This document shows, one piece after another, positions 20,004 to 50,047 of a DNA stretch of 64,000 nt. The stretch's first letter is position 1. The number at the start of each line of letters is the position of its first letter. The position numbers and the translations under genes are program-made. This DNA is from Planctomycetaceae bacterium (GTDB taxonomy: Bacteria > Planctomycetota > Phycisphaerae > Sedimentisphaerales > UBA12454), in NCBI GenBank assembly GCA_021371795.1, contig JAJFVK010000013.1:1-64000 (forward strand), given 5' to 3'. The notes below the pieces were generated by a model that saw only the letters and a list, made by a program, of their open reading frames with translations, was not told the DNA's origin and ran no database searches.

Positions 20004-20088
20004 CGGAAGGGAGAGGATTCGAACCCCTGGTACGTTGCCGCACTGTGGTTTTCAAGACCACCACCTTAAGCCGCTCGGTCACCCTTCC
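20004..20088 (-). tRNA. tRNA-Ser (anticodon UGA)
   Basis: Read on the minus strand, an 85-nt gene starts GGAAGGGTGACCGAGCGG and ends GGTTCGAATCCTCTCCCTTC plus C and the discriminator G. The acceptor stem GGAAGGG/CCCTTCC is perfect. The anticodon loop CTTGAAA gives UGA (plus-strand 20052-20054), and the long variable arm is that of a class II serine tRNA. CCA is not encoded. It lies tail-to-tail with miaA, whose product should modify A37 of this tRNA. Confidence 0.96.
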
Positions 20089-48690: not shown

Positions 48691-48790
48691 AGCAATTCGT
48701 CGTTTAGCGGCAGCCGGCACGGCGGCCTGTTTTTAAAACAGTAAATTCCAAAAAATATTAAATCCATCTCTGCCGCCTAATGCTGTGTTA

Positions 48791-48824
48791 TGTCATTGCG
48801 AGCGCAGCGTGGCAATCTCAATCT
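48791..48824. repeat. Short copy of the GTCATTGCGAGG repeat
   Basis: GTCATTGCGAGCGCAGCGTG followed by GCAATCTCAATCTCC. It has the flanks of the 31731 and 39738 copies with a much shorter centre. Confidence 0.65.
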
Positions 48825-48892: not shown

Positions 48893-49018
48893 ATTTGCTT
48901 TAAGGCAACGCCTGTATAGGCGAAAAAAAAATAAAAAGACAACCTCGGACAAAGCTTGCTTGGGGAGAGGTTATTTTTATTTTTTTGCAGTGTTCGCAGA
49001 ACACGCCTTAAAGCAAAT
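48893..49018. other. 126-nt cloverleaf (four-way junction) element
   Basis: Outer stem: ATTTGCTTTAAGGC (48893-48906) pairs perfectly with GCCTTAAAGCAAAT (49005-49018). Inside are three arms. Left arm: CGCCT-GTAT-AGGCG (48909-48922). Central arm: AAAAAAATAAAAA (48925-48937) with TTTTTATTTTTTT (48974-48986), extended by AACCTC (48941-48946) with GAGGTT (48967-48972), closing a 20-nt loop that contains AAGCTTGCTT. Right arm: GTGTTC-GCA-GAACAC (48990-49004). All pairings are perfect apart from a 3:1 bulge. It is not a tRNA (no anticodon or T arm) and no known RNA was recognised. The structure is symmetric, so either strand could be the active one. Confidence 0.7.
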
Positions 49019-49137
49019 CGTCGTGCCTTCGTGGTAAAAAAACAGTGTCAATCCGCGTTAATCCGTGTCTAAAAAAATCGTGGTTGAAAATAATTTAAAA
49101 TTAAGAATTAAAAACCAAAAATTTCTTTGTGCCTTGG

Positions 49138-49205
49138 TGTCTTAGTTTTAACCCCCGAATCTTCAAGGTTTTTTTCTACCTTGAAAGAAAAAAACAGAGG
49201 GGGTG
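49138..49205. repeat. Hairpin repeat related to the copy at 11810-11875
   Basis: CCCCCGAATCTTCAAGGT, a T-run, then ACCTTGAA and CAGAGGGGG. TTCAAGGT/ACCTTGAA and CCCCC/GGGGG form a stem. The word order matches the copy downstream of the hydrogenase operon. Confidence 0.55.
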
Positions 49206-49265
49206 GCTGCCGTAAGAAACTGCAAGTTTTCAAAGCACCGATTTTTCATTTATATTATTTTTGCC

Positions 49266-49333
49266 GATTTCACTTCCTTTTACTCCCATTCCAGTTCATT
49301 TCACTTCATTTTACTGCGTTTTAGTTTCATTTT
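49266..49333. repeat. Degenerate ~10-nt periodic tract
   Basis: Words such as TTCACTTCCTTTTACT, TTCATTTCACTTCATTTTACT-like stretches and TTTAGTTTCATTTTG recur at 10-11 base steps, strongly pyrimidine-rich on the plus strand. It has no unique spacers, so it is not CRISPR. Confidence 0.45.
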
Positions 49334-49740
49334 GTTGCCATCAAAAATTGCGCCTTGCGCAAATTTAAAGTAAAAACGCGCATTATCTATTGGCTACTGG
49401 CTACTGACTACTACATATAGTGGCACTGAAATTTTGCGCACGCGAAAACCTGCGCCAATGTTGCGATTTTTCGAAAATTTCGATTTTTGAGAAGGTTTTT
49501 AAGTGTTTTTAAGCGTTTTGTGAATTACTTGCGCACATTAAACGCTGTTTTTTGATAAAAAACGGAAAAATTGAAAAAATGATAATTGCTTTTGTGATAT
49601 GAAGTTGTGTCAGATTTTTAATAAAACGTGCGCATTTGTATTTTTTAAAAAAAACGCCATAACCCCTTTATTTTCACGCTGGGATTTTATTAAAAAAGCA
49701 TCCCGATTCATCGGGATTCCCAAATTTTGAATTTTGATGT

Positions 49741-49768
49741 TTGATGTTTGATTTTAGGACAGTATAAT
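49741..49768 (+). promoter_or_regulatory. Promoter of the RRM protein gene
   Basis: TTGATG (49741-49746) and consensus TATAAT (49763-49768), 16 bases apart, giving a leader of about 25 bases before ATG 49799. The -35 lies within a TTTGATG tandem repeat. Confidence 0.6.
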
Positions 49769-49798
49769 TACACACTTATAAATTTTGGATTGGCAATT

Positions 49799-50047
49799 AT
49801 GGGTAAGAAATTATACATCGGAAATTTGGGGCCTAACGCGACGCAGGAGCATTTGCAGTTGTTGTTTTCAGTTTTTGGCAAGGTAAAAAAAGCCTACATC
49901 GTCAACGATAAGGACACCGGCAAGAGCAAGGGGTTTGGTTTTGTTGAAATGAGCGATGACGCTGAAGCTAAAGCAGCTATCGAAGCTCTGGACGGCAAAG
50001 ACTGCGGCGGATACACCGTCAAAGTCAACGAAGCTAAATCTAAATAA
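49799..50047 (+). CDS. RRM-domain RNA-binding protein
   Basis: An 82-aa protein that is one complete RNA recognition motif. RNP2 is KLYIGNL and RNP1 is KSKGFGFVEM, and the beta-alpha-beta-beta-alpha-beta order is intact. It resembles the glycine-poor single-RRM proteins of cyanobacteria and planctomycetes, which bind single-stranded RNA and respond to cold or localise mRNAs. Start ATG 49799 gives the normal N-terminus MGKKLYIGNL. It has its own promoter directly downstream of the repeat-dense region. Confidence 0.93.
   Translation: MGKKLYIGNLGPNATQEHLQLLFSVFGKVKKAYIVNDKDTGKSKGFGFVEMSDDAEAKAAIEALDGKDCGGYTVKVNEAKSK

Follow-up and report, generated by a model that had tools for sequence, protein, structure and literature searches.

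The locus considered here, a 126-nt sequence in the window (i.e., the whole stretch of 64,000 nucleotides of planctomycete DNA that was analysed), raises the question of whether its extensive base pairing reflects a structured RNA, a transposable hairpin, a recombination site or a cruciform bound by protein, these being the four roles that the original prediction had proposed. The four perfectly paired arms on which that prediction was founded were located exactly, and the minimum-free-energy fold of positions 48893-49018 is indeed a four-way junction, with an energy of -47.9 kcal/mol. Two hundred shuffles of the same sequence gave -25.4 +/- 3.4 kcal/mol (z -6.68), and none of the 200 reached the energy of the native fold, so that the pairing does exceed chance. 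Within the central arm, the 6-bp helix and the tip are parted by an asymmetric internal loop that carries a GG invariant across the family described below, while the apical part, previously described as GC-rich, reads AAAGCTTGCTT and exhibits no marked GC richness. Rfam covariance models returned no family for the element at the gathering threshold, nor at permissive thresholds. The claim that the element has no known match thus holds for Rfam, but not for genomes, since copies are present both in its own genome and in those of relatives. The sole Rfam match in the window is a tRNA gene at 20004-20088 on the - strand. The features of the locus are collected in the table.

Table. Features of the cloverleaf element and of the sequence downstream of it (positions in the window).
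Feature	Position	Strand	Remarks
Cloverleaf element, full copy	48893-49018	+ (inferred folding strand)	Folding, genome copies, covariation, strand-polarity test
Outer stem	48893-48906/49005-49018		14 bp
Outer stem 5' arm, ATTTGCTTTAAGGC	48893-48906	+	Pairs with 49005-49018; serves as terminal inverted repeat (TIR)
Arm A hairpin, CGCCT-GTAT-AGGCG	48909-48922	+	5 bp, 48909-48913/48918-48922
Central arm	48925-48986	+	A7TA5/T5AT7 13 bp, AACCTC/GAGGTT 6 bp, internal loop, tip AAG/CTT
Central arm helix 1	48925-48937/48974-48986		13 bp
Central arm helix 2	48941-48946/48967-48972		6 bp
Central arm short tip	48952-48954/48959-48961
Arm C hairpin, GTGTTC-GCA-GAACAC	48990-49004	+	6 bp, 48990-48995/48999-49004
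Outer stem 3' arm, GCCTTAAAGCAAAT	49005-49018	+
GTG-type arrays adjoining the 3' side (TTCGTGG; CAGTGT-AATCCGCG-TTAATCCGTG-TC)	49019-49083	+
Additional array-like repeat (TTTGTGCCTTGGTGTCTTAG)	49122-49150	+
Downstream palindromic repeat module, CCCCCGAATCTTCAAGG...GAGGGGGTGGC	49152-49206	+	Congener copies have the same order and the same polarity
AT-rich 3' repeat module	49214-49570	+	Shared with the copy on contig C20 of the same genome
RRM protein gene	49748-50047	+	Outside the element; present without the element in a congener

The 126-nt cloverleaf belongs to a family of dispersed planctomycete DNA repeats that had not been listed before. A nucleotide search of its own genome (G000; 2.85 Mb in 28 contigs) with the window copy returned three further full copies, on contigs C20 (88% identity), C8 (72%) and C4 (70%), and a half copy on C1, i.e., four full copies and one half copy at five places, thereby providing the second copy that had been sought. 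Additional copies were found by the same kind of search in the congeners G001, G002 and G005. A covariance model built from 16 copies recovered approximately 64 copies in relatives, present in six of the seven genomes of the genus and ten of the 13 of the family, all genomes analysed being drafts; folded relatives thus exist, as had been anticipated. Copies are sporadic in a second family of the same order (two genomes, covariance model), and their number ranges from 0 to more than 10 per genome within one genus, with 4-8 in several genomes. Under stricter filters, the model returned no copy in the remaining 391 genomes of a 392-genome Planctomycetota sample. A pattern of the stem pairs, run over 84,980 species, had no matches outside Phycisphaerae/planctomycete MAGs except on one Saprospiraceae contig (L161), which was rejected as a family member as the covariance model does not recognise it. 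The viral contigs and plasmids searched held no cloverleaf element, and no description of such a cloverleaf repeat was found in the open-licence literature.

The fold has been preserved while the sequence has turned over. Among 54 copies (mean identity 62%, minimum 43%), standard pairs occupy 91% of pair cells and two-sided changes occur at 32 of 40 pairs, with 366 doubly changed cells against 108 +/- 8 in shuffles and a paired share that falls to 54-60% when the partner column is slid by one, although these figures lean towards the model since the alignment was fitted to it. An independent MAFFT/RNAalifold analysis of 16 copies identified 21 doubly changed pairs, and unconstrained folding of single copies returned the same cloverleaf in most of them. 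The compensatory changes predicted from the four arms were found in every arm. The outer stem has the family consensus TTTGCTTTAAGGC in the model alignment; the letters of arm A vary strongly among copies with pairing preserved, and in some copies arms A and C have been swapped wholesale with a hairpin retained. Furthermore, some copies carry an extra hairpin inserted in the central tip, and in some a known dispersed repeat is inserted there. The covariation by which structured RNAs are recognised is therefore present, but folded single-stranded DNA would give the same signal.

Since G.T pairs and A.C mismatches mirror each other between strands, their ratio reveals which strand is folded. In 35 non-redundant copies (less than 80% identity), helix columns contained 60 G.T against 21 A.C, and when folding was run with G-U pairs disallowed, the isolated mismatches numbered 12 against 1 (p 0.003), with the mirrored result on the other strand; the copies had first been oriented by similarity in arm C rather than by energy, and the preference of the model could add a small bias to these counts. 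The + strand was the more stable in 31 of the 35 copies under RNA parameters and in 32 under DNA parameters. The excess of G.T over A.C, about 3:1, indicates that one strand is the folded strand.

That strand also defines the side on which the element is accompanied by a second repeat. Directly after the stem, on the 3' side of the folding strand, lie TYYGTG units (of the types CTCTGTG, CTTCGTG and ATCCGTG), mostly 9-10 nt apart. When a two-unit motif was sought within 200 nt of each of the 64 copies and in 3576 background tiles, it was found 3' on the same strand in 43 of 64 copies versus 18 tiles (0.5%), in the opposite orientation on that side in none of the 64, and on the left side in one of 64 in each orientation. 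Divergent members with other stems (L141 and L126:1254) show the same layout of cloverleaf and array. The latter (L126:1254-1379, stem TTTTGCTTCAACA) has symmetric tails, with CAC-type arrays on its left and GTG-type arrays on its right. TYYGTG arrays with a 9-10-nt period, ending GTGGCTAA, are a common dispersed intergenic repeat in G000 and in unrelated viral contigs, and the open-licence papers searched do not name them. They also occur alone, with 47 strict matches in G000 (e.g., L163-L192) and many occurrences in viral contigs (L257-L281) that hold no cloverleaf. The proposition that every GTG array has a cloverleaf was accordingly discarded, as most G000 arrays and all viral-contig arrays are without one: cloverleaves come with arrays, but arrays do not generally come with cloverleaves.

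The modules that follow the arrays share one order and polarity in G002, G001 and G000, and the G002 and G001 copies possess a module of their own at the position equivalent to the AT-rich module of the window; these spacers combine several repeat modules into polar mosaics. In G002, an AT-rich dispersed module of ~320 bp, ending CTTGCGC-T6, occurs at 23 places (L223-L245), often 3' of cloverleaf and arrays. As about half of these 23 copies are without a cloverleaf match, the AT-rich 3' module was considered only partly a component of the cloverleaf. To the left of the window copy, a GTCATTGCGAGCGCAGCGTGGCAATCTCAA-type repeat at 48788-48819 has a 32-nt exact match in a human-gut phage record (MT835476).

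The copies are intergenic, and their nearest genes are divergent in 20 cases, convergent in 17 and tandem in 11 and 10, while a scan of 116 flanking ORFs returned no enriched Pfam family and no common neighbour gene. This intergenic, direction-neutral placement without common neighbours argues against the element being a terminator, a cargo gene or a regulator that acts in cis on a single pathway. The original prediction had also drawn an argument for an RNA role from the RRM gene downstream. That gene is present (ORF from 49748, likely ATG at 49796, PF00076 match with E 2.5e-22), but the argument drawn from it is not supported, given the unenriched flanks and the arrangement in G001. There, the block of DUF1573, small ORF, RRM and inositol-phosphatase genes is syntenic and the RRM 87% identical, while the ~1.1-kb cloverleaf spacer is missing and the small ORF extends into the promoter region of the RRM gene. 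Since the RRM gene is retained in G001 without this spacer, its proximity to the cloverleaf is incidental. No cloverleaf was found at the G001 RRM locus or at four other congener loci. The empty site spans the whole 1.1-kb mosaic spacer and hence does not single out an insertion of the cloverleaf by itself; the difference between G001 and the window may be a gain or a loss. Copies beside ileS in three genera were considered as in-place orthologues and rejected, as they sit on different sides of ileS. PDDEXK_3 (GxxExxY) genes, 81% identical, lie directly left of two related copies (L100:3596-3964 and L102:3612-3980, from G006 and G001), and were possibly duplicated together with the adjoining cloverleaf.

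Several observations point to movement. Within a single genome, near-identical copies (93-98%) have different flanking sequences, their homology on the left starting at the TIR, and the element has what is asked of a MITE in being short, non-coding, bounded by 14-bp TIRs, and repeated at five places in G000 and some 64 times in relatives. The target-site duplications predicted for a mobile element were not recognisable: inspection of the 64 copies revealed no matching direct repeats beside their stems. In six genomes, no autonomous transposon with the same TIRs was found and no TIR pair bounds a gene-sized unit; inward TIR pairs lie only ~100-170 bases apart, except in an element cluster on contig C40 of G006. 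Genes for Y1 transposases occur commonly in the family (13 genomes tested). Mobilisation by a Y1/RAYT enzyme was nevertheless not supported across these 13 genomes: G002 and G006, which both have many copies of the cloverleaf, gave no PF01797 match at E 1e-5, and the only covariance-model match in the vicinity of 30 Y1 loci was one adjoining a Y1-like ORF in G004. Palindromes of 127-138 nt with 17-21-bp stems (AAATGACTCCTGGCACCGTTT) were observed at the 3' end of RAYT-like Y1 genes in G000 and G001 (L205:2131-2257 and L196:1590-1727); these constitute a family separate from the cloverleaf.

On balance, the sequence comparisons make it probable that the cloverleaf is a non-autonomous mobile palindromic repeat of the Sedimentisphaerales (Phycisphaerae, Planctomycetota), kin in kind to MITEs and REPs, with a conserved four-way fold. 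This is the most economical and best reading, even though the element departs from both MITEs and REPs in some tests of membership; of the four roles proposed at the outset, that of a transposable hairpin fits best with the dispersed copies, the empty site and the compensatory changes, and less well with the lack of target-site duplications. The cloverleaf would move as a folded single strand, from DNA exposed in replication or recombination, and a putative trans-acting DNA-processing enzyme would recognise it by structure rather than sequence and join it to, or allow it to be retained beside, the 5' edge of GTG arrays. A copy that lost a pair would no longer be mobile, and structure would therefore outlive sequence.

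The strong covariation, the tolerance of G-U on one strand and the invariant GG of the internal loop would also suit a structured RNA, non-coding or carried as an element within transcripts, that has multiplied and been kept for its RNA function, with the + strand as the RNA and the GTG array as its 3' tail. This is nonetheless unlikely, as no conserved promoter-like sequence precedes the 5' end, Rfam provides no match, copy number swings widely within one genus, and orientation to neighbouring genes is random, such that read-through transcription would not be dependable. The asymmetry of G.T over A.C should be lacking in a double-stranded cruciform, which makes it very unlikely that the element is a protein-bound or chromosome-organising site (cf. 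BIMEs) whose fold is kept by a host DNA-binding protein, with dispersal secondary; copies are also few in several genomes and absent from some relatives. The intergenic, multi-copy occurrence of perfect palindromic arms able to extrude would nevertheless be in keeping with such a site, as would the ~10-nt spacing, which would place adjacent GTG units on one helix face. Maintenance of the palindromes by template-switch (quasipalindrome) correction and their spread by repeat recombination, with no dedicated machinery, would account for arms swapped wholesale, for the known dispersed repeat in some tips and for the mosaic spacers, yet such a passive origin appears quite improbable, given that arm-by-arm correction would not be expected to yield either a single constant layout of four arms, with unpaired positions that do not vary, or a strictly polar 3' partner.

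For the mobile repeat, a bolder proposal can be put forward tentatively, and with some doubt, namely that it represents a new class of bacterial mobile repeat, with a single-strand cloverleaf head read by shape, a GTG tail of fixed polarity and ~10-nt period that serves as landing site or moving part, and swappable hairpin arms. If true, the repeat would be moved in a structure-guided manner by a putative recombinase or, should the moving strand be RNA, would be a SINE-like bacterial retroelement. Conservation of shape points to an enzyme that reads the shape of DNA (or RNA), for the discovery of which the copies represent defined substrates, and the link to the cloverleaf offers a handle on the role of the common TYYGTG arrays.

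Bacterial intergenic repeats that are small and folded usually consist of one or two hairpins and are linked to a known transposase, whereas here a branched four-arm fold survives near-complete sequence turnover on one strand while being orientation-locked to a repeat tail. Integron attC sites, which serve recombination in the form of a folded single strand, conserve structure over sequence and carry R' and R'' boxes (RYYYAAC/GTTRRRY) within cassette arrays. The cloverleaf shares their folded-single-strand logic and the precedence of structure over sequence, but its consensus outer stem is without such boxes and no cassette array is present. ERIC and other enterobacterial intergenic repeats of ~100-170 nt (PMC2759123, PMC2267715) are comparable in size, imperfect palindromy and dispersal; by description, ERIC differs in being a single long stem-loop (PMC2267715), while the present element is a cloverleaf with a GTG tail in another phylum. 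REPs and BIMEs with their RAYTs are likewise palindromic intergenic repeats in mosaics, with a logic of single-stranded DNA hairpins, and RAYTs do occur in the cloverleaf-bearing family; however, REP palindromes measure 20-40 nt with a GTAG or CGTC foot (PMC3733652; PMC6006769), whereas the cloverleaf measures 126 nt, is not adjacent to RAYT genes, and in 64 copies has neither GTAG/CGTC nor any constant tetranucleotide foot. Class 3 TnpA-Y1-associated repeats of Planctomycetes and Acidobacteria, reported to have 'atypical secondary structures' and high copy number, have a 5' CnGA foot and lie next to a Y1 gene (PMC6006769), and the cloverleaf exhibits neither trait. MITEs (PMC10969869) are similarly short, non-coding, AT-rich, intergenic, multi-copy and foldable, with TIRs; the cloverleaf differs from them in having neither a target-site duplication nor a parent transposon that shares its TIRs, and in possessing a branched four-way fold, covariation in every arm and a polar array fixed on one side.
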